Assembly: GCA_027575765.1 (NCBI GenBank)
Contig: JANBPT010000047.1
Span: forward strand, 29,603-93,602
Length of the DNA stretch: 64,000 nt
Reading direction: 5' to 3'
DNA from: Tieghemiomyces parasiticus
Taxonomy: Eukaryota; Kickxellomycota; Dimargaritomycetes; Dimargaritales; Dimargaritaceae
Made by a program: the position numbers and the translations under genes. The notes under the pieces are model-generated. The model saw only the letters and a program-made list of their open reading frames with translations, was not told the DNA's origin and did no database searches. Below, piece after piece: positions 4,669 to 41,425 of this stretch; the first letter of the stretch is position 1, and every line of letters starts with the position of its first letter.

Positions 4669-5939
4669 ATGCTCGGACAACGTCTCCGAACCCTGGGTCG
4701 TGTGATCCATCCGACGGCTGCATTCCAGAACGCATGCCAGGTCGCCCTCCGCCAAGGCCTTAGCATTTCCCGCCTTGCGCAGGCCAACCCAGTACGCCAG
4801 CTCAACCAAACCCGGATGCCGAATAAGGCTGTCCAGGCTACAGCCGATTTGCAAGGTGAGCCTATATTTTTTTTCCTCCAATTTCTCTTTACTAGCTGGA
4901 TTGACTCATACCATCCACAGCAACCTTATTGACCGTCGGTATTTTATATTTTTGTCTCATCCACCACTCCTCTTTAGATACTTCTCCTGGGCCAGTAATA
5001 GAGACCGCCGGTCATACAGAGCCCGAAGCTAAGAACCCACGCTACAAATGGACGTCTGAGCAGGACGAGCGGCTACTACAACTCGTTGAGGAGCGCGGCA
5101 CCGATTGGGATGCCCTAGCGAACGAATTTCCCGACCTCCTCGGCCCGGCCCTCCGTGGCCGGCATCGATATCTAACGACACGGGCCAAGGCCTGGGAGTC
5201 CGTCGAGCTCGCCCGCCTGAAGGAGGCCCTGGCCAAATTCGGGCCCAGAAAGCGTTGGGTTAAGATAGCTGATGCGGTCGAGACCCGGACCCCACAACAA
5301 TGCTACACGCGGTGGTACAGCGTCCCACTGGAGGGCGAGAAGGCGGGACAGTGGCCCATAGAGCAGGACATGGCTCTCCTTCTCATTATCTACGATGGGG
5401 CGCCGGGTCTGCTGCAACACACCACGGAGTTCCAGGATCTCTGTCGTCAGTACCGCAACTTTACCCCGGAGCCCTACTGCGAACCCTGGCCTCGCACAAC
5501 CTCAGAATCCACCGACGCCGAGCCAACTACGGGCCCGGTAGCTGTGACCAACCCTTCTGTCGATCCTGAGCCAATGCTTTGGCACAAAGTGGCCCACCTC
5601 CTAGGTCGCAGGAAGCTGCGGTCCTACCACCCGCACTACGTCCGCCGTCGTTGGCGCCGGCTACAACGTGCTGCCGGGCAGATGGCGCGGTTACCCAAAC
5701 GCACTGTCGACCGTCTATTCGACTTGAGCCGGCAAAAGAAACGGCTGGACGTCAAGACGGCCAAGGAGATGGGTACCAGCGTGACTGCCAGCGAAATTCC
5801 CAGTCTCCTCCGGGTCCTCGCTCTCACTCGCTACATGGAACATATTATCCAGGCGGCGGCGGCGGGTAAGTACAAGAAGCGTGGGTCCAAAAAAGCTAGA
5901 GCGGTTAAGGCAAAAGCACCCAAGCCAGAGCTCGAGTAA
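4669..5939 (+). CDS. Multi-SANT/Myb protein with mitochondrial-type presequence (M1)
   Basis: Exons 4669-4855 and 4978-5939, intron phase 1 (GTGAGC...TTTAG), 382 aa. Exon 1 encodes 62 residues starting MLGQRLRTLGRVIHPT, with several Arg/Lys, no acidic residue until about position 60 and Ser/Ala/Gln in between: a classic matrix presequence. Exon 2 holds SANT-like repeats: ~87-128 (KWTSEQDERLLQLVEERGTD, core W...W, ending GRHRYL), ~134-176 (AWESVELARLKEAL, ending QQCYTRWYS), a divergent repeat from ~188 (WPIEQDMALLL, GAPGLL) and a last one ~262-295 (LWHKVAHLL, YHPHYVRRRWRRL). A helical tail with TAKEMG and a Lys/Arg-rich end follows. Compared with M2 it lacks the first repeat. SANT/Myb helices bind DNA or chromatin proteins; that this family acts in mitochondria is inferred from the presequence. 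Confidence 0.8.
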
Positions 5940-6615
5940 TCGTGCATACTATGCCAATGTTCTTTGCCTCATAAAAAAATTCATGAACACAGTGTATTCC
6001 CATCAAATAGAAGGGGCATCATGTTAGAAATCCTATGTAGTATTAGGAAGGTACAACGATCTATGCGCCAGGACCCATAGTTGGGGAAGTATCATTTGAC
6101 TCAACTTCTTGCTTACAGTTGACTGGATCGTACCTGTGCAGCCAGCGTGCACTCGATGAAATCTTAAAGGGCAGCTGATAGCACCCTGCGTTTCCTCTGA
6201 GGTTAGCTATTCAACTGACCAATCATCTTGTGTGCAGTGTATCCAGCAGGTATACGCTGGATAATAATGGTAGTAATACTGACGACCCCCACGCTACAAC
6301 TCAAGTGTCACATCAGCCCTTTACCATTGATAGCAAGTCATGACACATACCAGAGTTTCCGACGCAGTATAGGACCTCTTAACCTACCAAGCTTTTGCAG
6401 TGTCGGGATCCAAATGCCAACACCCCACAGAGCCCTGCAAGCCACCACAACGCCACACAGGAACCAATACCGCCGCACCAAGGCCTACAATTGGCCAGGG
6501 TAACGCACCCGGTGCCCTCGTAACTAACTATCTGAGACCCCAGCAAAGACCAATCGCCACACACTTCTAGGGTATATAAACCCATCAATCTAGTCACTAA
6601 TATTCAATATCTATA
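5940..6615. other. Intergenic, no gene seen
   Basis: 3' flank of M1 followed by AT-rich sequence. Several short ORFs, none with recognisable features. Confidence 0.45.
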
Positions 6616-7726
6616 CTATCTTTGTCTTGCGTACGTTGCAATAAAACCACCCCTCGGGGTTTCGCCTACCACGAGGGCCGCTTGTAATAGTAGCTGCAAG
6701 CCAACCCGGTCATTATGCATGGCATAGACCACTTCCGGTGTGGCCGAGTCGGACCTATCCAATAACTGGCCTACCAACCTTTGAGCGAACCACCGGTCAT
6801 CCGAAGCCCACACTCCACGGCACTGATCCCGAACTCAATATACACTGTGCCTTGGCAGTGGATAGTCGCGGTGTAGATTCGGTAGTTCGCCATTAGAGTA
6901 ATTGTGAGGGGGGGGGGGAGCTGCAACGAATGTGGCCTCGTGGGCGTGATCCCTGGTTCAGTGAACATCGGACGAACCGGTTGCTCAGTCTAGGGTTCGG
7001 AAATACGAACTTCCACATAGCTACGTTGGACCACGGTATTGAGAAGTAGCGTGAGCCACCGGCCTCCTGCCCAATAGTTATAGAAGCTAACCGTTCGATT
7101 CGAAGTAGAAAACACGCCGGCTGCCACCCAGGTTTCCCGGACCTTGAGACGCCCCAACTTTGCACTGCAGGGAATGAACCTGACCACGTACGTAGGTTCG
7201 ACAACGGGGCGGAACCACGAACGACGGTCAGATGAGTATAGGGTCGGGTCATCCGGTAGTAGGTTGGAAGGATTGGGCATCGATCTTTGCTATTCAGTTG
7301 GAAATCTAAGGCATTGAACGACTAGGTATTGCTTCCGGAAGCCTGACGAGTCGCTCTGAGGACGATTTCCTCCAAGATTGGTTAGATCGTAGGCCCAAGT
7401 AGCAGTGGCTTACTCACACCCTTGTAACCTGACATTGGCATGTATATGCCTGTGTCACCGGAGCAGACGAGTTTCGTACGCCATTTGGCACTTCTTTCAC
7501 CTAACGTTGACTGGAAGCCATCGTGAGTGAGGACTTGCCAAGCTAAGAGCTCGGTACGGCGGTCACGGTGGTCCAGAGCCTTGTCGAAATTACCGGTAGA
7601 AAGGTGGGTCATGCAGACTGCCGAGGCTCGTAGTTGGAAAGTGGTGAGAGCTTTGGGAGTACGTGCTGACTTATGGAGAATGGTAAGAGCCATGTGCTTG
7701 ATCTTTCGGCTGCTGGACTGGGCCAT
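6616..7726 (-). CDS. Possible multi-exon gene of unknown function
   Basis: Weak call. On the minus strand an ORF from 7726 reads about 100 protein-like residues (starting MAQSSSRKIKHMALTILHKS) and ends at a plausible GTGAGT donor near 7415. Downstream, a second open stretch ~7250-6990 contains RRSWFRPVVEPTYVVRF and VRETWVAAGVFSTSN, and a third ~6810-6616 contains DDRWFAQRLVGQLL and VGLQLLLQAALVVGE. They may be exons of one gene, but I could not fix the acceptors or the frames between them. I recognise no family. It may equally be a decayed gene or chance ORFs. Confidence 0.25.
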
Positions 7727-10001
7727 AGCGGGTGCGGCGGAATGACAGATGTGATTGGCTGGCCTCTTGGAGCCATCGCCTCTGCCAACTTACATGTGAG
7801 AGAGGAGGTGAGGCATAGGCTGTGGCCCCGTTTGGCTCACGCTGTGCCAAGGTGGATGGTCTGCAGGGCAAACAAAATATTTTTGTAATGGGTTGATATT
7901 CATAACGGACATACCCAAGATCTATTCTATCGAGCGAAATGAGGCGTAGGGAATATTTCCAAACGGCTACCAAAGTCATAGAGGAGAAGACGATTGTACT
8001 GACATTCAACGGTTTATACAACTTATTTGAAATGGGAGGGCGAACTGTGAGTCCGCTGCCGCTTCCCTCTCTTTTGGCCCATACCGCACAAAGGGAACAC
8101 ACACCAATGCTTGCGGGTGTTAATTCGTCGAAGGCACACCATCGCCTGTTCCTCCCAACGTTACAAGATATCTTAAAAGGCCCATAAATAGTCAAGCCCC
8201 CGCCGAGCTACTAATAAAACCAATCCAACTTATTTTTACATACTTAATCTTGCTTATATAGAATAATCGGAACAGTGTCTGGCATGTTTGTTCGTCAATA
8301 GCTTGGGAAAATGCACCGCCCTCCTAACCATCATTAGGCGAGGGTTACTGGCCACGTGAGGATTTTCTGTGAACCAAGTACTTCACTAGCCCCTGGCTGA
8401 AAAAATCGGTTGCGAGTCTAAAATGTGTCACAATTCTGGGCAGTAGTTCCTCACCACACGCTTTATGCTCGCTTTCATAGTTTGTGTTTCTATAGCTACT
8501 TGGTCGAGCTTCTAGGCCATAGTTACTGCACTGGATCCCTTCCCCATATGAATTCTTGCGAGCTGGCCGTGCCCATAGTTTGAATTTACCAAACTTGGTG
8601 GGTTACAATTTGTTAGTCAATATCAGCAGCCACTGTGCTTTTAGTAGATATAGTACTAGGGAGGCGTCACCTATTCATCCCACATAGCAACGTATGGTAA
8701 CCCAACCTATTCGTGGTAATAGTGATGGTTAAGGATTGTAGGATCTTGAAGATGTAGTCTTTTTCGTAATTCAGCATTAGGCCAAGACAGCGCTTAGCTT
8801 GAGTGCAAATAGGCGTCCGCTGAACAACGTTGGGTGATATTACATCATAACATTTAGGATAGGATATAAGGACAATATGGCAAGAGAAACATGATAATAT
8901 TTTTTTGTCTAGAAATCTCCAATTGATGATCACTAAAGGATATGGTCCTGATGGCTGGCAGCTAATGTGGTATTAACAGAAAATTCGTGAATGATTGTAA
9001 TAACAAAGCGGCACGATAAATTGCCCTAACCTGGCCGATGAAATACGCCAGCTTTTTATCACGAGAACCAAGGGTACAGTTGGCTGGGAAAACGATCTGG
9101 GAGGATATCTCCAAACGGTGATTATATTTCTCGTGCTTCAAAGGATGGTAACAAGCTAATGAAAGCGCCACTGTGATGCCCGTAAATAGAGTTTGGCACC
9201 AACTGGTCGAGTAGACAGGCGGGTAGGGTGTATTGGAGAGTTGGGGAGTGCTACGCACCGTCGATCAAATACAAGGAGTAGGTGAAAAATCGGAGCAGGG
9301 ACATGAAGGAGGGCCGGGCACCGGATTGATATAGTTTCTGGGTGGTTTTGTCATGATTCCTGGTAGTTAGTGTGCGGCCTCCGGCGGCTGCACATACGTT
9401 CTTGCAGCCTGGGAGGCCAGAAGCTTGGACGTTTCTGCGGTTCTAGGTGCCCGCTTTGTAAGTACTTCATGGAACTGTAGTGGCTAGCAATAGCCATTGG
9501 GTTGCAGCTATTTGGGCATCACAGTCCTTGAGGAAGGTATAGGAACTTAGTATATCATGGGTTGTATAGAAGCTATGAAACGCAAGTATTATATGGTTGG
9601 TATTTAGAATAAATAATTATTTCGCATCAATAGGCCCGAGACAAATGAGCTTCGGGCGGTCGAAAGAATCATAAAGTACTGGCAGAGGGGCTTGAAGTAG
9701 CCATTTGGACCGCCTGGATCACGGCCGCGTTTGCTGCACCATGATAGTTTTGGCTAATAATTCCCAGTGGACTCTGTGCGTGAGGTAAACCACGTGATAA
9801 TATGTGAACTCCCTAGGCGAGACACTCCCTTTCCCAGTTGCGCCCATAAATGAGCTTCATTCAATCACACTTGGCTCCATCCTCATGGCAGCCGCATCGC
9901 GACCGCTACTTTGGCCACCATCACCGAGAAGCTGCCTGTCGTTTGGCCGCCTCTATTAAGCGTCCTACAATCTCCGGAATCAATCTCAATAGGCTGGTAG
10001 T
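7727..10001. other. Long gene-poor, AT-rich stretch
   Basis: About 2.3 kb with no convincing coding sequence on either strand; the longest ORFs (minus strand around 7671-8195 and 8962-9258) show no protein-like pattern or splice support that I trust. The right end is the promoter region of the tRNA deaminase gene. Confidence 0.45.
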
Positions 10002-12622
10002 ATGACGGATGCTAGGGAGCAAACCTCTGCCATCCCGGTGCCGCAACTAAAAGTGTTTTCCGAGGTGGCCAACCGCGTTGCTCATGTCTGCCAGGAACGA
10101 TTCCGTAGGCTGCCTAAGAAAGGCAAACCAGCCACACGGGGTGCTGACAAACACGAATGGACCGTGCTGGCTGGAGTTGTCCTGGAACAAGAAGGAGGTA
10201 CGAAGCGGCCAAGTGTCTCCGACATAATTACAGGATGTAGGCTTATTATTACAAGGTAGAAAAGAGAAATGACAAGGCAGGTTCATTTTCCTTGCTAATC
10301 AAACTCGCAACACCCGTTATGACTCATTCAACTTGCCACTCCCGTATTTTTTCTTACAGACGACCTGGAATGTGTTGCGCTAGGGTAAGTCAAGGCAGCC
10401 GGCTGCATACCAGCCAGTACTCTCATTGTCAATGGCGTAGCGTCGTCCTGCTCACAATCTTTAGCATTATTGTTGTACTCACCTTCTTATAACAACCTTG
10501 CAGCACCGGGTTAAAATGCACCAGCGCCAGCCGGCTTAGCCGTTGCGGAGATTTGGTACACGACTGGCACGCCGAAGTCATTGCCCGTCGCTCCTTTGTT
10601 TGGTAAGTATGGCCTACTCGATATAATTTACCAATCCTGGCTTACTAGAGAGAGCGACAACCATTGGCCCAGATAAACTTTTATAATCTCACTCTAACCT
10701 GGGCTTTCTTATCCTCCCCGCAGTTACCTACTCGGTCAACTGCAGAGAGTACTGGCCAACTCGACCGTCGACAACCAAAACTCTATATTCGTATTGAGCA
10801 GCGATGGGGCCGACGGAAAGGCTCACCTGCGATTGCGACCAGGGATCCGATTTCATTTTTACGTTAGCCAGTCGCCCTGTAAGTGTAATGACACAGCATT
10901 GATATCAGCCACATCAATACGAGTGATGCTACCTGGAATATACACCATTACCTTGCCCCTGCTAACAGCACGCCCTGTGGCTCATGCTTTATTATTCGCT
11001 TGACCAGGTGGGGATGCTACCATGGAAGTCATGGCCGCCGCCACCGCTGAATCCTACGCCAAGATGGGACCAGCCCAATTTAGCCCCACTCTGCTCAGGG
11101 GCAGGCATTCCAGTGATGGAGAACTGGATTCTGCTGAACCGCCCAGTAAACGAGCCAAGCCCTCCGAGGGTGATGCTGAGCAGAGTACGTCCACGTTGCC
11201 GTTCCGACGGGGCCGCGACGACGTGGACTGCTTGACCGCCCTGCGAACGAAGCCAGGTAAGATAGCTGTTTTATAAGGACGTTGGAGAGAGGACCAAGTT
11301 TAGTTGCGTGGTATGATGGATTATCGCCCTACGATAATTACTAGTCCGGCTTTTTTTTTGTTACCACCTCTGATAGTATAATAACTCTGATCTGAATGAC
11401 CACTATTCTGCATACTAATCGTAGCACGAAAGGACGCCGAATCGACGACCAGTATGTCCTGCAGTGACAAGCTGGCTCTTTGGCACGCCGTCGGGGTTCA
11501 AGGAGCCCTAGTGGCCTATTTTACCGATCCAGTCCGGCTGACCTCGGTGGTAGTTGGGGACTGGTTTAGCGAAGTTGGGTTACGGCGGGCCCTCATCGGT
11601 CGCATGGGTGTGTATGGCCAAAGTAAGTTGCGCCATGGCAGATATCAGAAGTAGTCGTCTCTACTATACCTTCTCGCGATTCGAATATCCCAAGGGCCTA
11701 GCTAACTGTGCTCGTCTTAAGACTTGTCATGCGCTTATAATAGCCCATCCACTCCAGATATATCCCACGCAGTTACCGTTTGAGCACAGTCAATTCGCAG
11801 AGCGCGGCAGTGCTGGCCAGACGGTGTACATCCCGGCGGAAGCTGGTAAGTAAGCCGCGGTGGCGACATGCGACTCTGTCGTAAACGTACTACCTTGAGA
11901 GTTTTATCACATGGGGTCATTGCTTTTGACTGGTTTGGGATGAAGATGGATTGCCACTCTGATACCTACTTTTCAGGAGGTTTAAACAAAACATTGCAAA
12001 TACCGCCGACGGTCCGCCTGACACCCCTCCATCTTTCCTACGCTGTTGGTCGCCCACCTAACTATTTGACCGTTCACTGCCCTCCTCCTCCCACCCGAAA
12101 TTTACCACGGGGTTGCACTGATGGCTCTCGCTATTTGGTTTTGCCTACCCTTTCCTTTCGGTACCTGTCCCCCCCTCTGTCGAGGCAGCAATCGGGTGGT
12201 ACAGCGGCGCGAATGGGGCGGAAGTGCTTGTTGGGGGGCGTAAACAAGGCGCCGCCCCCGTGAAGAACAGCTTAATTGAGGGGCAGGGCGCCGTGTACTC
12301 CCACAAGGCCCAGTCACGACTCTGTAAACGGGCTCTACTGACCGAATTCACAACGACGCTCCAAAGGTGGGCTGACTACCTTGAACGCCGGTCAGAATCG
12401 CTCTCGGTTGATAACCCGGGGGCTATTCAGGCGCGGGTGGTACGGGCCGACCTCGCCTCGGTGGCGGCTGCCGGGCCATACCACAGGGCCAAGGACCTGG
12501 CCCACGATTACCAACGACGGAAGGAGGTGCTGCGCTCGACCGTTTGTGCTCGGTGGGTACAGACACCCGCCTGGGTTGACGAGTTTACAGGTCTGGCGAA
12601 TTCCGGGGGGCGGGGTGGCTAA
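10002..12622 (+). CDS. TAD1: tRNA-specific adenosine deaminase 1 (Tad1/ADAT1)
   Basis: Deaminates A37, next to the anticodon of tRNA-Ala, to inosine. Eight exons: 10002-10197, 10360-10384, 10504-10602, 10724-10878, 11008-11256, 11425-11622, 11744-11845, 12189-12622; all GT-AG and total 1458 nt, so 485 aa, close to the family's ~400-500. Exon 2 is only 25 nt. Motifs: LPKKGKP near residue 40; active-site HAEVIARRSF with His96 as zinc ligand and Glu98 as proton shuttle; FHFYVSQSPCGDA with Cys159; DAESTTSMSCSDKLALW with Cys254, then GVQGALVAYF; and a C-terminal GAEVLVGGRKQGA. The three zinc ligands are all present. Between residues ~172 and 240 there is a lineage-specific polar insert. The exon 7 to exon 8 join is the least certain; a further small exon could lie in 11846-12188. 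Neighbours are unrelated. Confidence 0.9.
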
Positions 12623-14379
12623 ACCGCAATCGGGACCACCGCCCCCTCTTCTGGTGACTGAAAAGATGAAATCGATAAGCCACCAACGTCGACCGCACAC
12701 TTAATGAGGGAACAAATGGTATCGAGGGTAGCGTGTGGTCACGCACTTACAAACAGCTGCGGCAATCCTATTCTGAACGGCGCCCAGGTCTTGTGTACAT
12801 CGTCGTCCGTGACCGCTTCATTGGAAGAGAATGCTCTTTCCAGCCTTCTCTGGCACCGCTATCATTCAACTTTTCGTACCAAGCCTTCATTATTAAATAT
12901 GACATTGGTAGCTCGGCTTCAACAGGGTTGTAACGACGACTTGCCCGAGTTGTCTCCCCCCGTATTTGCCAATCTACCACCGGGAGCCTCGACCAGCTTT
13001 AAGTCATTCGATTTACTTGGACCGTAAGTCAGGGGCTGGTGATCTAAAAGCGGGGAAGACGGCAAAGATTAGATGATTTAGCCGAATGGACCGAACGAGT
13101 TGTCAATCCCCCCCGACCACGTTTACTTGCCTTATTTTCTGGGAAGGTACCATTCTAGTACCTATCGGCCAATGTCTATTAAACCGGCGAATCGGCAATA
13201 GAGGTTGATCTGCGGCGGCTAAAGGAGTCAGGCCAGTTACACCGGCTGCTGACCCTTCTTACCGTTCACCAATTTCAGCCACGGGCTGAATAGTGGTCAT
13301 ACATCCATGTGCAATAGTTCATTCACTGAGATCCAGGCGCGGGACGGAGAAAGGGGGTTAGAACAATGGGCTGCAACCGCATTTGGTACCCTCTAATTTA
13401 TAGTCTTCAGGGGCTCGGTAGGTCCTGCAAGCGGACGAAGCCTTGACGTAGAGCACTCAATAGGGGCAAAAAAACATGACGCACATTCCAATTGGCTTTT
13501 CCCCCCTTGGCACGCCGGCCGTGTCGTCTACGGCTTTACATTTGACGCCCGATCGGCCGACCTATTTATCTCAGCGTTGCGATATCTACGACCGTACTCC
13601 GTCATCAACGCTTCCGTGGCCTACCCGCACAATCACGTCCGAGCCGCGTCCCAGCGCCGAGCTGGATTGGCTAAAGTTTGAAGGGGGCCGGTGGCGAATG
13701 GTTGAGGAACGCAGAAAAGGTGAAGCCAGGATTGGGGAGAGAGGGGCATAAAAGGCCAGACGTGATAGGGGAGGAGCCGGTGGGGGCCCGGGTGTGTGTG
13801 GTTGGGGGGACAAGGAGGGTCCACGAGACCCTTTCCACCAGATATATTCCGGGCGGTAGAGGTAGGGCGCTGAAAGAGTAGACGCCTGGGCAATGCCAGG
13901 CAGGCGAGGGGACGAGGGAGGGGTAGGAGCCACAGAGTTGACTGACAGCAGGGCTCTATATAAAAGGCCGCCGGGGGGACCATCCCTCTGCGGAACTGGG
14001 GTTTTCTGTACACCAACCTACTCTCTCACCCTCCCTGCCGCGTCTCTTCAAGTGTCTTACTGTAGGACTCGACCGTTTTTTTATACCTCTGAACCCCACG
14101 GCGTCCTTCGAGTTGCGGCTCATTCCCTCTCGGCTGGCACTTCCCCCGTGCGCTAGCCTCGCTGGTTTTGCTTAAGTAACCAACCTAACACACTCTGAAC
14201 CTACTACGGCCCTCTACTTCGTCAGCACCCTACCTTAATACGAATCCCCCGGGCCTACCATTCGTGGTAGTGTGAGGTCTCGTCAACTTCTATTCTCTCC
14301 CCGTCTCCCATTGGCCCTTCCAGTTACAAACCCACGTCGCCTCATCCGCACCGGTCGTCAATACACCTGCTTCTAACTC
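12623..14379. promoter_or_regulatory. Intergenic and upstream region of the AFG1-like gene
   Basis: No convincing gene. A strong TATA box (TATATAAAAGG, 13957-13967) on the plus strand lies ~415 bp before the ATG at 14380, followed by a pyrimidine-rich stretch that looks like a 5' leader. ORFs at 12704-13027 and 13476-13751 have no recognisable features. Confidence 0.5.
13957..13967 (+). promoter_or_regulatory. TATA box upstream of AFG1-like gene
   Basis: TATATAAAAGG matches the TATA consensus very well and points toward the gene beginning at 14380. It favours the upstream start (14380) over the in-frame ATG at 15150. Confidence 0.5.
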
Positions 14380-17346
14380 ATGAATTCCCTCCGTACATCA
14401 GCTGCCTGCCGGGCCTGCTGCCCGAGCCGGGCTTTCCTATCGGCCGGGCCGGCCCGTTGCTGGCAGTGCGGAATCTTCCGTCCGACAACGGCCACGATCT
14501 CCGCTCCGAGCTCACCTTCAATACGTCCGCGTGGCCTGGCCACTCTGGCCCTAGCCGCCGGTCAGCGTCCCGGTGGGCTTCGCCGGTGGCGGTCGACGCA
14601 TGCTTCTGATCCCTTCCTGTTGGATCTCGGCCCCCACACCAACAGCCAAACCGCCCAGTCTGCTTTAAGTAGGTGCACAATGGAGCCAATACACAATGGG
14701 ACACTTCACTCGTTATGGGAGGGGGCTTCAGTGCGCTAGCCCCCTAGTGGAGGGGAAGGAAAGCTGCACATTTGCGCCCTTGGGTGTGCGTCTCGGAGTT
14801 AGTCGGGTGGCAGAGTTGGCAGACCGGGGCCAACCGGCTCGGTTGCAGCCTATCCTCCCCCCTGGACCCATTCACTCGTAGCCCCTCAATCGGCTCTGCG
14901 GCAGTGAACTGGAGGGGAGGGCGATGGGGCAACTCACACCAGCTGCTGCTGTCCGACAGTGGAATTGCGCCTATCCGCCTATGGTAGTCCAGGCCCAGGG
15001 GCAGAGCGGGCCCTGTCAGTATCCTCCCCCTCTCGTGCTGCTAGCCCGTACGTACAATAGTTGTACCCCAGGGGGCGGTTGGATCGCTGGGCGAATGTGG
15101 CCGTACGGCCTCGCCTAGCGCTTCCTAGGTAGCGCTTTTCAGCCGCTATGTGACTGCGAACCGGGCGGGGGAAGTCAACTGGCACTGCTTAGCCGGTGGG
15201 AGACTCCACGCAAGCAGCAGATGTCCCGGTCGGCAATTGAGGCCCCTCGCGGCACGCGCCCACCCGTCGTTTGTCCCTCGCGACTCTAACACTTCTGTGT
15301 GCACCCACTTCACCCATGCCCTGACTAACCGCCCAGAAGTGCCCACCGAAGGCCCTCTCGCTGTCTACCAAAGTCTGATCACCAACAAAAAACTCCGCGA
15401 TGACGAGTTCCAACGGTCCATCGTCGGCGTCCTCCAGCAGATGTACCTGAAGCTCAAGGATTATCACCCCGCCACTGCCCACCATAATGTCATCATGGAG
15501 AAGGTAAGGACCCGCGAGGACAATCCCGCCGCCAACGTGCTGGGAAGTACCACATTTCGCCACTCAAAACCATACCGGCTATTGTATTAACCTTTCGACT
15601 TCCTCCCCCCCCAACGTATCGGTTTGTCCCGTAACCTCCTACATTACCAGATTGCCAAGTTACTACCGTTTCGGCAGGGCCACTACATCCACCACCATCC
15701 GTCTCCGCCCGACGACACCCATCCAGCCGGTCTGTACCTGTACGGCGACGTTGGTACGGGCAAGACGATGCTGATGGACATGCTCTACGACACCCTCCAG
15801 GTCGAACGCAAGAAGCGCATTCACTTCCACGCCTTCATGCAGGACGTGCACCAGCGTAAGTTTGCCCCTTGGACTTTAGAGCCAGAGCTATGTAATTCCC
15901 TCTTTGGACGTGATACCCTTTTCTCTTTCTACCTATCCGACTCAGCGCGTGCAACCATTGCAGTGCACCAGTCCTTTCCCACTGACCCAGCCTTCACCTC
16001 TGTGCACTGCCTACTTTTATCACAGGCATGCAACGGTACCGCGAGGCCAACCACTCGCAGGGTGATCTGATCCCTGTCATCGCAGAGGAGATTGCTAACG
16101 AGTCCTGGGTACTCTGTTTCGACGAGTTCCAGGTGACAGACATTGCCGATGCCATGATCCTGCGCAACCTCTTCAACGAGCTCTTCTTCCACGGTGTGGT
16201 GGTCATCACAACCTCCAACCGCCATCCGGATGGTAAGTGTCATGCACAGAGGCACGTTTGATGGGCCGACCATGCGGGAGGGGGGCATAAGGTGGGTACC
16301 AGCCTGACACGCCAATTACCTCACCCGCGGACCAGTCTCCAGGTCCGTCATATTAACCCCTCACCCTGCCACTGCTGCCGCTACCCACTCGGAGCACAGA
16401 TCTATACAAGAACGGCCTGCAGCGGCAGAGCTTTCTCCCCTGCATCGATCTACTGAAGGAGCAGTGCCGCGTGGTCTCATTGGATTCGGGCACAGACTAC
16501 CGACGGCTCGAGCGTGAACGCGGTCATCTGTACCTCACCCCTTTGAACTCCGCCACGACCGACCGTATCGAGCAACTCTGGGCGCTGGCCACAGACGGTG
16601 GGACTTGGCGCGCGGCCGCCACCCGGACGCTCAACTTTTTGGGTCGCGACCTAGTCGTTCCTCGCGCGGCGGGTCGGGTCGCCTACTTCTCATTCGACGA
16701 CCTCTGCGCCCAGGCCCACAGCGCCGCTGACTACCTCCAGATCGCCGCCCATTTTGACACCGTGTTCGTCACGGGGATCCCCCGGCTCGACCTCACCATG
16801 AAGAACGAGGCCCGGCGGTTCATCACCCTCGTAGATACCCTGTACGAAAACCACATCGTGCTGGTCATCTCGGCCGAGGCACCTGCCGCCGACCTGTTCC
16901 GGGCCGAGGGCCACGATACGCCGAGCACCGGCGCCGAGGATAAAACCCGGCCGGCCGTACTCGAGGGTCACCAGCTCCAGCTCATGGACGATCTTGGTCT
17001 CAACCACGAAGAGGTAAGTACGGTGGAATCTTGGATCCGTGGGTGGTTTAATGGCGGTGGGCCCGTGTCTGTGGCGCCGGCTCGGCGTACAGATTGAAAT
17101 GCCGTGAACCAACTGCTAAGCTCCACATCCCTCTACACCACCTTTTCAACCGTGCTCATCGTCCCCCCCCCCCTCATCCAACCTACACAGCTCTCAAGTC
17201 CCATCTTCACTGGCGAAGAGGAAACCTTCGCCTTCCAGCGCGCCGTCAGCCGCTTAGTCGAAATGCAGAGCAAACTTTGGGTCCATGGCTCCCGCCAAAA
17301 GCTGGCCAAGGGCTTCCTCGACTACCAACTCCGGTACCACGTTTGA
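14380..17346 (+). CDS. AFG1: AFG1/LACE1-type mitochondrial AAA ATPase
   Basis: Family members are matrix or inner-membrane ATPases that help degrade or extract mitochondrial proteins, including respiratory-complex subunits. Proposed exons: 14380-14668, 15337-15503, 15651-15855, 16026-16232, 16400-17013, 17191-17346; phases agree, 545 aa. Exon 1 ([20 protein letters not shown]..., later [12 protein letters not shown]) is a strong matrix presequence. Walker A GDVGTGKT at ~184-191, Walker B VLCFDEFQ at ~249-256, then [20 protein letters not shown], a family hallmark, with the splice inside it. A divergent central part leads to the conserved end [11 protein letters not shown]. The later exons are secure; the first intron (668 nt) is longer than usual, and an alternative start at 15150 in continuous frame is possible. 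TATA at 13957 supports the upstream start. Confidence 0.88.
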
Positions 17347-17688
17347 CGCTTATCTACCACCTCTAGACCTTGCGGAAATGCTAACCACCTTCTCCTTCCG
17401 TTATCTGCATTGGCTATACCTTTTCCACACCCCTCTACCGTCTTCCATACTTGCTTGCCTGTCTCTAACATTTGCGCCTCTTCCCTACCTTGTCATGCGA
17501 TGAGTCCCATGTCGGTTTTTATGCCCTTGCTCAATGTCCATAAACATAATCATTGACCGTGTAGATATATGCGCCCTCCTATTTCAACCCACCTGAAGCT
17601 CCTAATTTGGAGCACATGCCAATGGGGTGAGGGTTACTAGGGCTGTACTATCTCGCACGGCCTCCACTCATAATCACGAATGTCGAGA
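17347..17688. other. Intergenic between convergent genes
   Basis: 342 bp between the AFG1-like gene and the minus-strand M5 gene; contains their 3' ends. Nothing else seen. Confidence 0.5.
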
Positions 17689-18246
17689 TCACTGTGGCTG
17701 GGCCTCCTCGAGGACCAACGCACGGCGGATTTCACAGAACCGCACCAACCACCGCAAGTCCGAATAATCCAAATCCAACCCCATCTCGGCCGCTATCTGG
17801 GTAGGTGGAGTGAGGCTGTCGTTGACCAGTCGAAGCAAGCGTTCGACATCACCATCGCCGATATCGGTCGGGATCCGTCGGTACCCAAGACGCAACTTAC
17901 GGTAGCGATCGCGGCAGCTACTCTCGGTGCGATCCGGTACCCGACTGGCGATTATCTGCCAGAGTCCCGGGGTGCCAGATGCCGAAGTGTCCTCCGCATG
18001 ATGCCCGCTGTATAACTCGAAGGTTCGGGCAGCGGAGGGCTGATAATCGACCAGCCCGGCATTGAGGCTTGGATGGCGACGACGGCAGAGGTCGGCGTAG
18101 ATAGGCATGCAGTTGAGTAGATAATCGTCGGTATGCTGGATAGACAGTAGGAGGAGGGCATCCTCAGTAGCGGTCCAGTGGGTAGACGCGGACGCTCGTC
18201 GGGCGACGGAGCTGATGGAGTCTGATCGCATGATCGAGGACGGCAT
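17689..18246 (-). CDS. Short SANT-family member lacking the N-terminal repeats (M5)
   Basis: Single ORF of 185 aa. After a short Arg/Ser-rich start (MPSSIMRSDSISSVARRASA) it aligns by eye with the C-terminal half of M1-M4: the repeat HWTATEDALLLLSIQ ... LL ... YADLC, then the last repeat LWQIIASRV ... SSCRDRYRKLRLGYR, then the helical tail with AAEMGLDL and DLRWLVRF. The two central, best-conserved SANT repeats are absent. It may be a naturally short paralogue, a truncated gene whose 5' exons were lost, or a gene whose upstream exons I did not find beyond 18246. The N-terminus lacks Glu, has one Asp and is basic, so mitochondrial import is possible but weaker than for the others. Confidence 0.6.
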   Translation of the reverse strand: MPSSIMRSDSISSVARRASASTHWTATEDALLLLSIQHTDDYLLNCMPIYADLCRRRHPSLNAGLVDYQPSAARTFELYSGHHAEDTSASGTPGLWQIIASRVPDRTESSCRDRYRKLRLGYRRIPTDIGDGDVERLLRLVNDSLTPPTQIAAEMGLDLDYSDLRWLVRFCEIRRALVLEEAQPQ

Positions 18247-19467
18247 CTTTCAAGATGGGTATAGATAAGACAAAAAAACACCTAAGGATTAAACCAAAAC
18301 GATCGAACGAATATCGGGTAATGAAATCAAGTCGTCGCCTTTCTAATAGCTCGTGTATCATTTAAGTATTAAATCTAACCCCCTGGGCAATGCGGAGGCG
18401 GGGAAGGGTTGCCACCACCTTAATATATCCCGCGGGTTATTCGTTGGCCATGGTAAAACTTTGATAGTTGCATGCTGATGCGTAACTTCTAGCACGACAG
18501 TGCCTGCAGAGACGACACTACCTTCGGAGGAAAGGGGGGGGAAAGGAGTCCTTAGGGAGCGTCGGTGATATCCCTAGCTGTTATGGTCAAATGTCACTCT
18601 TGATTATACCGACAGCATTGTGGCCGTGCTAAGGTAAAGGTCACCCGGTTACGTTAATTTGCTGATTGTAAGCCAAGATGGGGTAAAATTTCATGCCGCA
18701 CGGTTAGCGTTAGGCTGTATGGTTGGATTAGGCAAAGCATCTGTAAGGTGTATCAGAGGACTTACAATTTTGCGTATGAGTTGACGTTGCAACAACCTGG
18801 GCTGCTATCACGCGACCTGCAGCGCTGTACAGAATATAAGAAGTGGTGGGTATCAATGGTCAGGCCCCCCCATTCCTGCCCCATTAGTATGCTTACCACG
18901 ACCCAGAATTTTTGTAAATCAGTTAGTACATTATGTCAGAGAGAGGTGGGTGACCCATGCTGACTGCTGCTACGACCATTGCTCCACGCCTCCGCAGGCT
19001 ATTATCTAATCAATAGGGCAGGCAAAGGGAAATGTATTTTGACGGCTGTAAGTAACCAGACGGCCGGCAGTCCGTGTCCGGGAGGGGGCGAAAGACGCTG
19101 CGTTGGAATAGGACATCAGTTATACAAGCCGTAGGATAGGAGTGGCGGGGTGGTGTCTGGTGGGGTCGAGATGAACCTGATAAGAAAGAGACTCCCCCCC
19201 TTCGAATGAAAGGTGAAAGAAAACGAAAGGGGTGGTCGAATTGGCGGCGGCGGCGGATAAAAAAAACAGGTGGAAAAGAGATCAGAAACAATTACAGATG
19301 CGGAAAGCCAGGGTGAGGCCGCTAGAGGCAGGGAAAAAAGACATACCGTCACAGGGAAGACGAAATAAACGTTTAAACTGAATAGAGGCCACAGAGGCTA
19401 CACGATAGGGGGGGGATGGAAAAACAAACACATCAACAACATCGGGGGGGGTGGTTAGGTCAGTCAA
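18247..19467. other. Intergenic, no gene seen
   Basis: 5' flank of M5 and 3' flank of the PP2C gene, both on the minus strand. Only short ORFs; several runs of G or C. Confidence 0.45.
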
Positions 19468-28400: not shown

Positions 28401-30331
28401 CATTCCGGTCGACGTGGTTGACAGCGTCCTCGACCAATTGGACCGGCTGGTAGAGGTCGACGGAGGCGAGCCCCGGGCCCTACGCCGGTACGCCTCCCGA
28501 CTAGCGCAGATCCAGACGGTGCGGGTCAGTAAGGACCGGTCCCGCCCCAATCGAGCCCCTACCAACAGTGAAGGGGCCGACACCGACGCGTCGCCACGGG
28601 ACCCAGCCGGGCGCGCCGCCTTCGACCGAATTCTCGACTACCTGGAACTCATCCGAGTCGCTATCGACGGTCGCCGCTGGCACCACAAACCGGTCTACCG
28701 GACGGCCTGGATCCGCGCCCGCGTGCTGTGCCAATACTCGTTGGCCCTCGACGCGCTGGCCCCGCTCTTCAACGCTCGGTCCGTTACCAAATCGTTCATA
28801 AGCTTTTATAAGACCGAGATGGAACCACCTGGCCAGCATTACTACTATGTTCACAAGTACCTGCGTCTCCTGTTGGACCTGTACGAAAGGACCGGCGACC
28901 TGGATGGACTCTTCATGGTGGCCCACCGCCTGCGTAAACTCGATACCGTCCTCATCGCCCCGCGCGTGATCGCAGCAGAGCTCTATGTGCACTACCGTCG
29001 TGCCCTCGAGGCCGCCGTCGCCCAACTACCCGCTAACGCCGCGCTAGAGGTATCGGATGGCGATGGCGAGTCGACTCCGACGATGGCCTCTCTGGTTCAT
29101 GCCTTGTGCCTGGAACGGTTTGAACGACTGGTCGCCGACCTGGAGCAATGGCTGATAACGGTGCTGACCAGTACCGCGGACCAATTCTCGGCCTCAGGGA
29201 GCGGCACTCCGGCGGTGCCATCTATGCCCGAGAGCAGCGGGGGTTCACCGGTGAACAGTTCAAGCGGGGAGTGTAACCCGAGTGGCGGGGGTGGTACCAG
29301 CGTTGCCGGCGCCGCCTCAGACCGACCCAGCGGACCCTATCTACCATCTGAACGGTCTTACCGATTACTGCCTGCTAGCGGTGATTTGGTTGTCCGCCGC
29401 CTGTACCAGCTCTTCGCCCTCCTGGTTCACGCCGTGAAACTGAAACGCCTAACTGCGACTGACGGGGAGCAGAAGCAAGCCGTTGAGACCTTAGTCCAAC
29501 GTATCTACGTCGATATCCTGGTAACGTTTACGACGTGGCGCCGGGATCACCCGCCACAAATGCCGGTTCAGGAAAGGGGTTCGGATGAAGCGATGGGGGT
29601 AAATTCTTCGCCGGTTAAGGTAGAGCCCGCCCTATCGGATGTGGTGGCTCCTACCGAGGTTACCTCAATGGACGAGGACCCCACCCCGGCCGTGCAAGCC
29701 AATGAAACGACCATGGAGGCTAAGCCATCGCCATCAACGCCACAGCCGTCACCACCGCCGACTACCCACGACCAGGTTGTCGCCGATGCAGAGGCCAAGC
29801 CGGTGGTCTCCGACTCAACCACTTCTACAGGAACCATGTCGAATCCTGAACCGTCGGCCTCAATCGAATCGGTCGTCGAATCGAATAGCCATGTGACGCC
29901 ACCGACACCTTTCGAGATCTATCCTTGCCAATGCCCCCCACTGTCCAGTGCGGAAACGTCCACAGCGGACAAGGCCCTGCCCTCAGTACTACGGAAATCG
30001 GCGCCCAAGACCCACCTCAAGCTGCTCACCCGCTCGGACCTATTCTCCCGTCTGAATGCGCTATACCTCCTACTACAACCCAAGGTAACGATCACTACTG
30101 TTGAGGGTAACTGATTTATACCGAAAAATCCGCCCAATTCCTACGCAATACTAACCTACCCCTACGGCACTTTTTTCTCCCCTCTCCCCCCACCACGGCA
30201 ACAATCCCCCATTCGCCCTTCAGGATGACGGCAAATCATTGAGCACCGCCTCCCTCGCGGCCAAGTCAGTGGAGAATAAGCTGCCTCCTGTGCAAACCGA
30301 GTCAGCGAGCACGAAGGTTAAGGGTAGCTGA
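22449..30331 (+). CDS. HIR3: Hir3 / CABIN1-type histone chaperone (HIRA) complex subunit
   Basis: Scaffold subunit of the HIR/HIRA complex, which deposits H3-H4 outside replication and controls histone genes. Exons 22449-22523, 22900-27124, 27296-30084, 30224-30331 keep phase and give about 2398 aa (yeast Hir3 ~1650, CABIN1 ~2220). The start MIRFTPINVE resembles CABIN1. TPR-like helices follow: YNQALRLYNKGRRKDARELL, then YLLRAAELDASDTTLWLRIG, which is the conserved block. Around residues 250-420 there is a long low-complexity segment rich in Pro, Ser and Arg. More helical repeats lie in exon 3 (VIDLYRNQLSVTPTAPVAWY), and the C-terminus is Pro/Ser/Thr-rich. The last intron (GTAACG at 30085) is my choice; reading through would end the protein at 30114 instead. 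Family assignment is by N-terminal pattern and TPR context. Confidence 0.8.
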
Positions 30332-30518
30332 GCCCCTTGCCGGGCACGAGCCATGGATCTGCACATGTAGGACTTCGTCGCCTTGCGTGACACCGCCAAA
30401 TTGCGGCTACCTGCTCGGGATGTAGCCTTATCATTCCGTTAGCCTGAGGATGGCCCGGGGGCCGAGTTGAAATTCCAGTATTGCCTTGCAAGGATCCGTT
30501 GCATTACCACCAGTTTGG

Positions 30519-30539
30519 TATATATATAGATATATATAT
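30519..30539. repeat. TA microsatellite
   Basis: Short TATATATATAGATATATATAT run in the 258-bp gap between the convergent Hir3-type and M2 genes. It could take part in 3'-end formation. Confidence 0.6.
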
Positions 30540-30589
30540 TCCATCTAGCTCTGTGAAGGTCTCTTTATTCGCTCTTCAATAAAATCCTA

Positions 30590-32071
30590 TCACACCGGCG
30601 TCAACACCTCAACCTTCTCGCCTTTACGAGCCGTCGTAATGACACGATTCATGAAGGCCGGGAGAGCCAGGGCGCGGAAAAGATAGGGCAAGTCATTTTC
30701 ACTAAGCTTACTGCCGCCCAGATCCTGGACGTCCTGGACGGTCAGCTTCTTCTTTTTCAATGCCTCGCTGATTTTGATTGCGGCAGCCGGCGGCATTTGG
30801 TCCGCCAGTTCGGCTCCCTTGACTAGGCGGCGCCAGCGGCGGCGGCAATAGTAAGGGTGGTACACGGGCCGACCCGGCTGGCTGAGTAAAGTGGCGATAC
30901 GATGCCAAAACATTAAGGGCGGTTCCCTGTCAACGTGGTTATCAGTCGGGACGGCGTCAGCGTCGGTGGGGGTGGCGCTGAGGGGTTCGGCTTCGGCGAA
31001 GGTCAGCGAGGCTTCGGGTAGGGGTGTATTTTCCAGACCCAGGGGCCGGTCCCCGAGTTCGCCTGCTCGGAAAAACCGGGCCGTTTGCACCCGGCGGAAC
31101 CGCTGGCAGAAGGGCCGGTACACGGCCAGCTCATTTAGGAGTTGGGGGGCCCCGTCGTGGACCATGAGGAGTAGGGCCATATCGTCTCGCATCTTCCAGG
31201 CCCCGGCCGGTTCGCCGTCGAACGGACACGAGTACCACCGGTAATAGCATTGAGCGGCGGTACGCGTCCGGACCGTACGGGCCACTGTGACCCACCGGAC
31301 CGCGGATTCATCGCCAGTTTTTTTGGATGTCGCCTTGGCCGCCGCGGCCAGGGCCTGCTTGAGTCGCGCCACCTCCTCCGGCTCCCAGGTGCGGGGTTTT
31401 ACTTTACAGGTCAGCAGGGTGTGACGGGTCTGCAGGGCGTAACGCGAGAATCCCGGGAATAGCTTTTCGAGTTTCACCCAATTGGGACCTTGTTCTTCGA
31501 CCAACTGGATCAGCCGGGCGTCCCGCTTGGGGGTCCATTTTAGGTCAGCTTTGGCCGGATCATGGGTTAGCCGGCGCAGGCGCTGGTTGCATTCGCGCCA
31601 GTCGAAGCCCCCAACGGCCTTGGAAATGGGGCCCCAGTTAAAGACCCCGTGGACTTTGACGGCTTCGAGAAGCCGCTGGTCCTGCTCAGGGGTCCAGTGG
31701 ATTCGCCCGTCCGCAGCAGCGATATCGGGTATCGGACCAGGCGTCAAGTTAGCGGTGACCTCTGAGTATTGGGGAGGAAGGGAATACCGTATAATCGAGA
31801 GGTCGTTAGCCTTCGAGGCCAAGGTGTTAGGAAAGAGCCCAACCCGCCTGGATGGTGATCCAATGGCCGGGATCCTAGACATTCGGCACCACCGGCTCGT
31901 AGCCTAATTCAATTACGTCAATGCGAGAAGGGGTGTATACTCACCTTGCGGGGCCTCTTTTCCAGAGGGCAGGCCTTGGCTGAAGACTCGCATTGAGGTC
32001 GGCTGAGCGCCAGGGGCCAATGCGGCCCGCACCGCGGGCTGGCCCAGTCGCCCGAGCTGTTGGAAGAACAT
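30590..32071 (-). CDS. Multi-SANT/Myb protein with mitochondrial-type presequence (M2)
   Basis: Longest family member and best reference. Exons 32071-31945 and 31761-30590, phase-1 intron (GTGAGT...CTCAG), 432 aa. Exon 1 gives 42 residues starting MFFQQLGRLGQPAVRAALAP; it is basic, with MRVFSQG resembling an R-3 matrix-protease site. Exon 2: repeat 1 ~64-108 (HWTPEQDQRLLEAVKVHGVF, W84); repeat 2 ~117-160 (KWTPKRDARLIQLVEEQGPN, TRHTLL); repeat 3 ~167-220 (TWEPEEVARLKQAL, RWVTVARTVRTRTAAQCYYR); divergent repeat 4 ~230-268 (WKMRDDMALLL, GAPQLL, PFCQRFRR); repeat 5 ~320-355 (FWHRIATLL, YHPYYCRRRWRRL); then the tail with VQDLGG and LPYLFRALAL. A TATAAAT lies ~130 bp upstream of the ATG. The frame in exon 2 is open past the acceptor, so without the intron it would be annotated from 31882 and the presequence missed. 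Confidence 0.82.
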
Positions 32072-38233: not shown

Positions 38234-39488
38234 TTAGAGAGCCACGCCAGCAGGATCCGGCCGTCGCCGGGGCAGCCTGTACCCGCCCTCCGCTGCGGTC
38301 ATCACCATCCGGTGAAAGAAATCGGCGAGGCTGACGGCACGTTCTAAATCCATTAATTCATCTTTGCTTGCGGCTAGTCCCATGTCGCGAGCTTGCAGCG
38401 GGTCGATGCGGCCCAGTCTTTTCCGTTCTTCGCGGAACCGAGCAAGGGTAGACGAGGGATGTTTAGCCGCCACGCGGGCACCGTTGATGAGGACTCGCCA
38501 GCGTTCCCGACACAACTGCGGGTGGTAGGACTGTTTGTCGCTCAATTGGACGGCGACGTGGTGCCAAAACCGCCGCTTGGGTTCGTGGTCGGCATTGGGT
38601 GTCGACCGAAACGTCAGGGGCAGTGCACCGTCCTTGGGTCGTTCCCCCGGTGGGTGGTCTGGTATGGCGCTGCTATCAATGAACTGGCCCGGAACGAAAA
38701 AGGGCTTGGGTTGAAAACGGCGAAACTGCTGACACAGGTGTACGTAGGCCGGCGCCGGCTCGAGCAGGCGGGGGACGCCATCGTGGATACACAGGAGCAA
38801 GGTCATGTCCTGCGGTAGGGGCCACAGACCAGCCTGCTGCCGACTAGCAGGGGTCGTGTACCAGCGGTTATAGCACTCCAGCGGGTCTTGGGTGCCGACT
38901 TCCTCGGACACTGCCAGCCACCGGTCCGTGCCGAACCGAGCCAGGGCAGATCGGAGGCTGAGATCTTCCCGGGTACTCCATCTTTGCGAACCCTGTAGCT
39001 TGACCAGCATGACGTGTCGCGCGGATATGGTGCGTGCGTCGAATCCGGGAAAGTCGTCCTCTAAACGAAGCCAGTTAAACCGGTGCTCTTTGCACAGTTT
39101 AAGCAGTCGGCCGTCGTCTTCTGGGTTCCATGCTGACAGTGGTTTGGACGGCAGGGCGGTGGGTCGGTTCACCGTAGGCTGGGGGGCTATGCAACCAGAG
39201 AAGCGAGGCGAGTGTGTTGGAGGAGACGGAAATGTGAAACGTTGGGGAAGAAAGGAGGATAATCAGTCTGTGCTGTGAGCTGGTTATCCTAGTTACCTTG
39301 ACACGTCGGTCTTCTGCCACGGCCCACATTCCTTGACACTCACCTTCGCTAGTCGCGCCGTCGGGTCGGACGTCATGATTCGAGAGCCGCACGGCGGTAG
39401 TGGTGTAGTAAGCCGATAGCACACCGCGGCAGGCTGGAGCGACACGGACGAAGGGACGGCCCGATGCCCCAATGAGGTACAGGGCCAT
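38234..39488 (-). CDS. Multi-SANT/Myb protein with mitochondrial-type presequence (M3)
   Basis: Exons 39488-39344 and 39186-38234, phase-1 intron (GTGAGT...CATAG), 365 aa. Exon 1 (48 residues, starting MALYLIGASGRPFVRVAPAC, then YYTTTAVRLSN) is basic and has no acidic residue before about position 39, a good matrix presequence. Exon 2: one repeat at ~66-107 (AWNPEDDGRLLKLCKEHRFN, FPGFDARTISARH), one at ~115-157 (RWSTREDLSLRSALARFGTD, ECYNRWY), the divergent repeat (WPLPQDMTLLL, GVPRLL, HLCQQFRRFQPKPF), the last repeat (FWHHVAVQL, YHPQLCRERWRVL) and the tail with ARDMGL and FFHRMVMTA. The first repeat of M2 is missing, as in M1. The M4 gene ends 500 bp upstream, in the same orientation, so the two form a tandem pair. 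Confidence 0.8.
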
Positions 39489-39987
39489 GTTGGGTGGGGG
39501 ATCCAAACTCTAGTGCTACTTGATCAGAATCACGCAGGCAGGCAAATGCAAAGAGGCGGGCGAGCCCAGAGGTCATTTATGGTATAAAGTCTACCGGCCG
39601 CTGAGCAGCGCCAGCGTAAAGGTATGAACGAGGAGTGGGGTGCCAGCTGAGTATGATTGTGTGGACGAGTTGCTCCCAATCAGCATTCCTCGGTATCCTC
39701 AAGGAACCCAGCGCGACACTAGAGGTTGTCAGAAGGCCCAAGGGAATTGTGTACTTGGGAATGTGGTTGGTCGGGTAGCTTCGTGTCTCGGTGGCTCAGA
39801 AAAAGAATCTACCCCTTCTGTAAGCAGTAGAATATTGGAACGATAATCCATCTACATTGTGGAAGGCTGGAGGGGTCAGAGCCGTCGCAAAGGGGCCCCG
39901 CCGTCCGCAGCGGCGTATAGGGCGTGTTGAATTTATTTTACTGCTATCAATGTCGGACGAATCCGACTGTTGAGAATAAAAATTGAT
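39489..39987. promoter_or_regulatory. Spacer between tandem M4 and M3 genes
   Basis: 499 bp containing the M3 promoter (minus strand; CTTTATACC around 39580-39588 is a possible TATA element) and the M4 3' end. No gene seen. Confidence 0.45.
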
Positions 39988-41425
39988 TTAATCCTCTTCC
40001 GTCTTGGGTAACTGGGGTACTGGTGAGGATTTCCTGGCGGACGCCTCCGTGGCCTGGATGATGGCATTTTCAAACTCTTCACGATCGCTCAAGTACCGCA
40101 AAACCCGGGTCAGGTTCAGGTCGTCCAGCTGCGCCCCAGCGGCCTCGGCCGCTACCGTGTCAACGACCTCGCGGTCCTGCCGGACAGCTTCGAGCTGGTC
40201 CAGCGTGACCGGATCCAGAGTCGCGGCGGTGGTGGCACAGTTGCATAGCGTACGCCAGCGCTGGAGGCAGTACTGGGGGTGATGGCGCATGGGTTCCGGA
40301 AGCTGAAGGGCCACGTTGTGCCAGACCTCACGCGGAGGTTCGGCGTTAGGGTCCTCAGGTTCAGGGTCCACATCTTCATCCTCCTCCTCATGCTCCTCTT
40401 TCGATTCACTTTCGGATTCCGATCGACTCACCCTTCCCCGGGCCTGGAACAAACGCTCACAGAGTAAATACCATAGCGGTACCGCCTGTACGATCGGCCG
40501 CGAAAACTCGAATACGGCCATGATCAGATTGACGTCCTCGGTGCGGCTCCACGGTTGCTTCGCCTGGAGCACGGGACTGACGAACCACCGCGTGTAGCAT
40601 TCCTTCGTTGTCCGCGTTTGTACCACCATCGCCACCTGCCGCCAGCTCTCGGTTCCGTGTGTATTCAGGGCTGCCCGGAGCCGGCCCAGCTCGTCAGGAT
40701 TCCACGTCTCCTGACGGGGTACCCGAAGAATTGACCACCGGCCGCGGATCTCTCGCTCCGTGAAGTGCGGGTGTCGGTAGTAAAATTTGGACCAGTCCCG
40801 GTCAATGTCCTTGACGAGTCGCATCAGTACTTCATCGTGGTGGGTCGTAAATACGTGCTTGGGTCGCTGGTGGCGGGTAAGGAAAATGTACCGTTTGTGG
40901 CACTGGCGGGGACCCCCGCCCTTATTGATGACCTTGGATACCGCCTTCCAGTTGTAGAGACCGTAAATCTTCACCGTCTGGAGCAGAAGCTCATCCTCCT
41001 CGGGTTTCCAAATCCGTGTCGCGGGCCTGTAGATATAGTCGGCCCAGGTGCCGTGTGGTCTGACCTTCGGTGCCGAAGCTAGTGGTAGTGAAAGGCAAGC
41101 GTAAGTGAGGGTGGGATCAGTTAAACGTAGATGTTCAAAACCCCTGAGAGGTTTGGCAGATCGTCCGAAAGAGAGATGGGTTTGAACCAGCCTTGAGTAT
41201 AAGCCTTCCTGTCCAAATCAACTTACAGGCTTGGCCTTCAGTGGCCTGGTCGGTACAATCTGTGGGCTCCGCTTTGGACGGCGCATCCGTGCTCTGTAGA
41301 CGGGCAGCGCCAATGCGGGTTATAATCCAGGAAATGGAGGTCGGTGCCCTGGCAAAGTAGTGATCAGAGAGTAGCGTCGCCCGGGCAGCCGGTCGGCCTA
41401 GCTTTACGAGGCACCCGGCTAGCAT
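39988..41425 (-). CDS. Multi-SANT/Myb protein with mitochondrial-type presequence (M4)
   Basis: Exons 41425-41227 and 41078-39988, phase-1 intron (GTAAGT...CACTAG), 429 aa. Exon 1 encodes 66 residues: MLAGCLVKLGRPAARATLLS ... RIGAARLQSTDA; ARLQST looks like a matrix-protease cleavage site. Exon 2: repeat 1 ~89-135 (RIWKPEEDELLLQTVKIYGL, NWKAVS, CHKRYIFL), repeat 2 (HDEVLMRLVKDIDRDWSKF), repeat 3 (TWNPDELGRLRAALNTHGTE, SWRQVAMVV, ECYTRWF), divergent repeat 4 (WSRTEDVNLIMAVFEF, LLCERLF), an acidic run rich in Glu, Asp and Ser near residue 255, repeat 5 (VWHNVALQL, HHPQYCLQRWRTL) and the helical tail. Most diverged of the full-length members. A conventional ORF search starts inside repeat 1 and misses the presequence. 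Confidence 0.78.

Follow-up and report, generated by a model that had tools for sequence, protein, structure and literature searches.

A 64,000-nucleotide stretch of the genome of Tieghemiomyces parasiticus, a mycoparasitic fungus of the Dimargaritales (Kickxellomycotina), carries five genes with Myb/SANT repeats, four of which (M1-M4) begin with a short exon that is predicted to encode a mitochondrial presequence. This stretch (hereafter the window) comprises bases 29603-93602 of contig C776 and reaches the right end of that contig; the assembly has 46.5 Mb in 1363 contigs, and most Myb loci are present in it twice, as is expected of two unmerged haplotypes. Myb/SANT proteins have been studied as nuclear factors. 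The reading put forward here is that M1-M4 would be imported, site-specific regulators that bind mitochondrial DNA (mtDNA), and the chances that it is right in full are judged to be about even; import of the family proteins into mitochondria, taken alone and as predicted from their N-termini, is likely, and nucleic-acid binding by them, taken alone, is considered just as likely. M1-M4 have two exons each: the first is short and basic and is separated by a phase-1 intron (122-183 bases) from the long SANT exon, in which two or three complete Myb/SANT repeats precede a final repeat that an insert divides and a C-terminal region. M5, a truncated relative, has no presequence. An earlier note on this DNA had described the five SANT-bearing genes and a basic first exon in M1-M4; both observations are borne out, the latter as an exon able to splice in phase 1 to the SANT exon, with modelled coordinates and with 3-5 basic and 0-1 acidic residues among the first 35 of each protein.

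The SANT frames themselves point to an upstream exon. Twenty of the 27 allele rows of this frame in the family (members outside the window are numbered with F) contain no in-frame ATG before the first repeat, M1, M3, and M4 in both haplotypes among them, and since no Met stands ahead of the first SANT, most members require an upstream coding exon. Such a Met does occur in M2, both F10 alleles, one F12 and one F13 allele, F15, and F19; that of M2 sits within its intron and is absent from the M2 allele. When any ATG-opened segment in the upstream 450 bases was admitted and the segments were ranked solely by donor strength (M5 not included), the top rank went to the presequence exon with a phase-1 donor at 12/16 loci in at least one allele, namely, M1-M4, F6-F8, F11-F14, and F16. 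The same exon is included in all three deposited T. parasiticus models, P0001, P0002, and P0010, that were returned by protein searches. P0001, annotated 'Myb- protein A', is an allele of M1 with the same donor and an acceptor 24 bases further in than in the present model, P0002 is identical to the present F14 model, and P0010 corresponds to F7 starting at an inner Met.

Presequence-like features were scored over the first 35 residues (three or more basic residues, no more than one acidic residue, and a helical moment of 0.45 or above) and were found in 13 of the 14 scored loci (M1-M4, F6-F8, F10-F14, F16, and F17; F15 and F19 not scored) vs 24 of 155 random ATG-to-donor segments. The latter were drawn from the window and the fetched loci and removed only if their first 20 residues were shared with a listed member, and this null is conservative because some family alleles are still in it. 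As a control, none of the first-Met N-termini of 15 long frames passed, although these rows include L018 and L023, inner starts of family members, and the alleles L001/L002; the N-terminus read as the organism's HSP60 passed, and two read as cytosolic chaperonin subunits failed. Among 13 members (F16 left out), the exon-1 N-termini reach a mean pairwise score of 3.04 vs a shuffle mean of -3.38, with 0/500 shuffles attaining 3.04, and for M1-M4 by themselves 0/1000 shuffles reach the observed score. In view of this likeness beyond shuffles, exon 1 appears to have a common origin throughout the family. Targeting of a diversified multi-SANT family to the matrix, as proposed in the earlier note, is well supported by sequence through the presequence exon, the phase-1 intron, the likeness of exon 1, the acid-poor amphipathic N-termini, and the deposited models; it does not extend to M5.

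M1 lies on the forward strand. Its exon 1 (4669..4855) encodes the putative presequence (MLGQRLRTLGRVIH...), ends in the phase-1 donor GTGAGC, and is also used by the deposited allele P0001, and its exon 2 (4978..5939), with an uncertain acceptor and without in-frame Met ahead of the first SANT, holds R2 (5049-5174), R3 (5193-5327), the split R4 (5352-5456 + 5574-5669), and the C-terminal region (5694-5858). The other four genes are on the reverse strand. In M2, exon 1 (31945..32071) codes for the putative presequence with a cleavage-like site between RVF and SQ, and exon 2 (30590..31761) for R1 (31696-31568), R2 (31537-31412), R3 (31387-31223), and the split R4 (31198-31091 + 30913-30818), followed by the C-terminal region. 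M3 comprises a predicted presequence exon (39344..39488) and a second exon (38234..39186) with R2 (39130-39005), R3 (38980-38849), the split R4 (38824-38717 + 38572-38483), and then the C-terminal region. M4 likewise has a predicted presequence exon (41227..41425) and a second exon (39988..41078) with R1 (41010-40879), R2 (40851-40726), R3 (40704-40573), the split R4 (40551-40450 + 40326-40240), and the C-terminal region. M5 (17689..18246) is a short single exon reduced to the split R4 (18177-18076 + 17964-17890) and the C-terminal region. In M1-M4 the donors are clear and the acceptors less certain; the modelled family proteins are 361-521 residues long (n=12).

PF00249 (Myb) exceeds its curated cut-off of 24.4 bits in each of M1-M5. 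Only Myb-type Pfam families exceed the curated cut-off in the five window proteins, and PF00249 and PF13921 match 12/12 members of alignment A2 (E <=0.1). No Pfam match to PPR or mTERF was found in M1-M5 (E <=1) or among the nine families listed for A2 (E <=0.1), and six proteins gave no NCBIfam match over cut-offs. Contrary to the earlier claim, the five genes do not all share one repeat order: M2 and M4 show R1-R2-R3 and the split R4, M1 and M3 are without R1, and in M5 nothing but the split R4 and the C-terminal part remains. In A2, judged by eye, R1 can be recognized in M2, M4, F6, F7, F11, F12, and F14, has degenerated in F8 and F13, and is absent from M1, M3, and F10. The common C-terminal module that had been described is indeed present in M1-M5, but its start is a Myb repeat cut by an insert, namely, R4, in which a first helix W...D..LLL is separated from later second and third helices WH.VA..L and HP.YC..RW..L; in M5 the Pfam Myb match covers the second half of this repeat (profile positions 23-45). 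Across 12 members, the entropy within the recognition helix of R3 is 0-0.4 bits at the scaffold residues C, Y, and W and 2.4-2.9 bits at three positions that we take to be equivalent to the base contacts of c-Myb and that differ between paralogues. From residue 46 on, the pI is 8.7-9.8 in 11/12 members, M4 (pI 5.9) being the sole acidic one, and several members carry a strong positive charge in the second half of R4 (up to +10).

Among known systems, the closest likeness is to SNAPC4 (SNAP190), the large subunit of the snRNA-activating complex, which likewise strings several Myb repeats together. Among solved structures it is matched best both by the family profile (E 2.1e-32, profile positions 22-240) and by F7 alone (E 3.6e-19). 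It is, however, a nuclear, long protein with further regions, encoded by a single gene, and its solved sequences have 1469 and 1519 residues (a third is a 522-residue construct) vs 361-521 residues here. Compared with what a SNAPC4 orthologue would show, the type of repeat chain fits, whereas the length, the number of loci (at least 16), and the predicted presequence do not, and the split last repeat likewise sets the present family apart. With c-Myb and the R2R3/3R Myb factors the family shares the repeat fold and the recognition-helix scaffold; it differs from them in the variation among paralogues of the positions matching base contacts, in its predicted mitochondrial destination, and in the split R4. 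Multi-Myb terminators such as Reb1 and TTF-I, whose role is in nuclear rDNA, also contain several Myb repeats, but the match to Reb1 (5eyb, E 2.2e-8) is far weaker than that to SNAPC4. By analogy, and as a matter of general knowledge, the PPR proteins (including the restorer-of-fertility-like ones) and mTERF are comparable as large nuclear-encoded, organelle-addressed families with repeated nucleic-acid-binding modules and diversified contact residues; their fold is unrelated, the five window proteins matching only Myb-type families above the curated Pfam cut-off.

When the assembly was searched at the protein level with the M1 SANT exon, 37 matches had E <=0.01, the weakest of which are other Myb genes. 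Candidate loci were fetched and scored with a profile of M1-M5, and 17 representative loci were placed in a tree, from which alleles, F17b, an F6-like copy (L017/L018), the broken L019, and the partial L036 and L037 were left out; L022, L033, L034, L038, and L039 had no family-profile match at E <=1e-3. With haplotypes merged, the family comprises at least 16 loci, a count set at 16 and not 17 because F15 and F17 may be alleles. Its members are spread over many contigs, and F10 and F13 (L011, L012) stand side by side on opposite strands as a second family cluster. In the 17-locus tree, M2 groups with M1 and M3 (81/85), M4 with F11 (93/88), and M5 with F15/F17 (82/78), and M1, M2, and M3 may be close kin; a fuller tree unites only M1 with M2 (91/86) and leaves M3 by itself. 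A single recent local tandem amplification of five copies was rejected, for a clade of M1-M5 at p 0.0007 and, weakly, for one of M1-M4 at p 0.032, and the description of the family as locally amplified is not supported. The terminal branches are long (median of 1.24 changes per column), which argues that the paralogues are old, and in the phylogeny the five window copies fall on several deep branches of a family spread across the genome.

Purifying selection acts on the SANT exons, and the genes are kept. Allele pairs of this exon have a dN/dS of 0.07-0.35 in 11/12 cases (M1 0.28, M2 0.07, M3 0.07, M4 0.32, and M5 0.22), F10 being the family's highest with 0.69, vs 0.02-0.36 in 11 other open reading frame (ORF) pairs, not all of which are verified as genes. 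On these values, positive selection was rejected as a general feature of the SANT exons, and no overall signature of an arms race is seen. Broken copies do occur, namely, L018 and the F7-like L019 (C1180), which contains a TAG. Together with the F8 allele that has a stop in exon 1, the truncated M5, and the dN/dS of F10, they are what a decaying repetitive family of mostly functionless relics would leave behind, an explanation that is very improbable given that the remaining allele pairs fall inside the range of the other ORF pairs.

It is proposed that in an ancestral gene a presequence exon was linked by a phase-1 intron to a SNAPC4-like Myb repeat chain, and that this gene would then have duplicated and diverged deeply, the folding core of the repeats being kept and the base-reading residues being changed. 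Each protein would enter the matrix, lose its presequence, and bind, as a mature protein, its own short site in the AT-rich mtDNA, where it could regulate the expression or maintenance of mtDNA in a gene- or site-specific manner. Different sites per paralogue and a regulatory role, like binding itself, are what we infer from the repeats. Possible targets, though not evidence of targeting, are offered by C970 (27,272 bases, 20.6% GC), the only contig with mitochondrial genes in the searches made; cytochrome b (PF00033) had no match in the assembly, which indicates that the assembled mtDNA is incomplete. The cox1 gene of C970 (about 6163-20929) spans more than 14 kb and is interrupted by numerous introns that carry LAGLIDADG frames; searching the assembly gave 15 LAGLIDADG_1 matches, every one of them on this contig, and a group II intron match is present here as well. 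At its left end, an 805-residue open frame (C970:406-2820, L048) matches phage-type RNA polymerase, of which two other copies, both nuclear, look like alleles. Such polymerase frames are carried by mitochondrial plasmids. The plasmid DNA polymerase PF03175 had no match here, and it also gave none in any control genome. An exact 60-base inverted repeat at the right end (C970:27056-27115 and 27213-27272; L050:7056-7115, 7213-7272) is either a real terminal hairpin or inverted repeat or an assembly fold-back, and nothing found in the analysis specifically supports binding of mtDNA ends, one of the roles suggested earlier. By position, the repeats on C970 are largely copies of LAGLIDADG coding sequence, and no binding-site motif was identified among them.

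The same intron-rich mitochondrial genome lends some weight to RNA as the ligand. The family proteins could be imported RNA-binding or RNA-processing factors that bind transcripts, e.g., cox1 RNA, for splicing, stability, or translation, in a manner resembling PPR proteins; many site-specific RNA factors could be useful for a cox1 of this length with its many LAGLIDADG frames and for the group II intron, and the strongly basic second half of R4 would be in keeping with such a role. This explanation is possible but rather unlikely, as R3 keeps the scaffold of a DNA-binding Myb helix and Myb arrays are mostly known for binding DNA.

Several observations weigh against mitochondrial, site-specific DNA-binding proteins, or at least do not fit them well. 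The ranking by donor strength disagrees in the other allele of M3, F8, and F13, with an overlapping ATG in another frame of the same region in M3 and a stop in the exon in F8 (L014, C540), and F10, F15, F17, and F19 do not fit it, F10 having its presequence in the same frame as the SANT repeats without an intron. M5 fails the feature test with 3 acidic of 35 residues and was rejected as a full member with a presequence. F11 fails through 2 acids (its start Met was chosen among several), and the exon scored for F17 is not its best-donor segment. A cleavage-site pattern of the R-3-like kind was seen in 6/14 loci vs 22/155 random segments. Exon 1 is loosely constrained, with a pooled pN/pS of 0.66 over 9 allele pairs and single pairs above 1 (M1 3.59, F6 3.36, and F14 1.31), and although none of its 34 amino-acid differences (first 40 residues, F13 left out) involves an acid, this is not significant (expected 2.7, P 0.06). 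In F7, a basic stretch after the presequence could, from its sequence, be a nuclear signal. As for binding, many members have single repeats that are near neutral (R2 -6 to +8, R3 -3 to +5), and one neighbouring non-contact position of R3 varies more (3.19 bits) than the contact positions, so that the variation of the latter indicates freedom to change and is not proof of new specificities. Lastly, three protein searches found no orthologue in another species, a result of an insensitive search and not evidence of absence: they rely on shared exact 5-residue words, one scored the best 8000 candidates, and known paralogues were missed. They returned 1, 9, and 1 proteins, of which those other than the three T. 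parasiticus models are from a chytrid, a plant, and a diatom, with four metagenome proteins besides, and resemble general Myb proteins (four of these seven inspected at sequence level).

Some of these points would suit ordinary nuclear transcription factors whose basic N-termini are merely presequence-like in a GC-rich genome: the background among random segments is not low (24/155), exon 1 is weakly constrained, and F7 has its basic stretch. Against this speak the exon 1 and intron phase common to the members, with a likeness beyond shuffles, and the failure of every control N-terminus, and nuclear factors are therefore considered unlikely. In a bolder version of mitochondrial import, the family would be a Myb-based counterpart of the plant PPR/restorer system, i.e., an expanded imported family in which each member has its own base-reading residues and whose targets, to be recognized and either silenced or managed, would include selfish mitochondrial elements (the cox1 LAGLIDADG introns and the region of the plasmid-type RNA polymerase) in addition to ordinary mitochondrial genes; this is likewise regarded as unlikely, and a strong current arms race finds no support in the selection data. 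General nucleoid packaging, analogous to that by mitochondrial HMG proteins, would account for the basic character of 11/12 members. It is improbable, since at least 16 deeply diverged paralogues with differing contact residues exceed packaging needs and M4 is acidic, and the variable base-contact positions lean towards site-specific binding over packaging.

The modules of these proteins are known; searches of the open-licence PMC literature turned up no report of a mitochondrial Myb/SANT family, and within the searches made their combination as a large, apparently mitochondria-addressed family appears to be new. If regulation of mtDNA by imported Myb proteins holds true, it would be a new route of nuclear control over an organelle genome, independent of PPR, mTERF, and HMG proteins, in which the contact residues of the recognition helices can be tested one by one, and it would show which protein folds are recruitable for organelle gene control in early-diverging fungi.

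The remainder of the window contains a few other features, all on the forward strand. AFG1-like ATPase exons (15591-17094) lie between M1 and M5; known members of this ATPase family are mitochondrial. A piece of an adenosine-deaminase (editase) domain at 12122-12619 scores 26.2 bits vs a Pfam cut-off of 27, and two long open frames (22900-27225, 1441 codons, and 27289-30114, 941 codons) have no Pfam match above cut-off.

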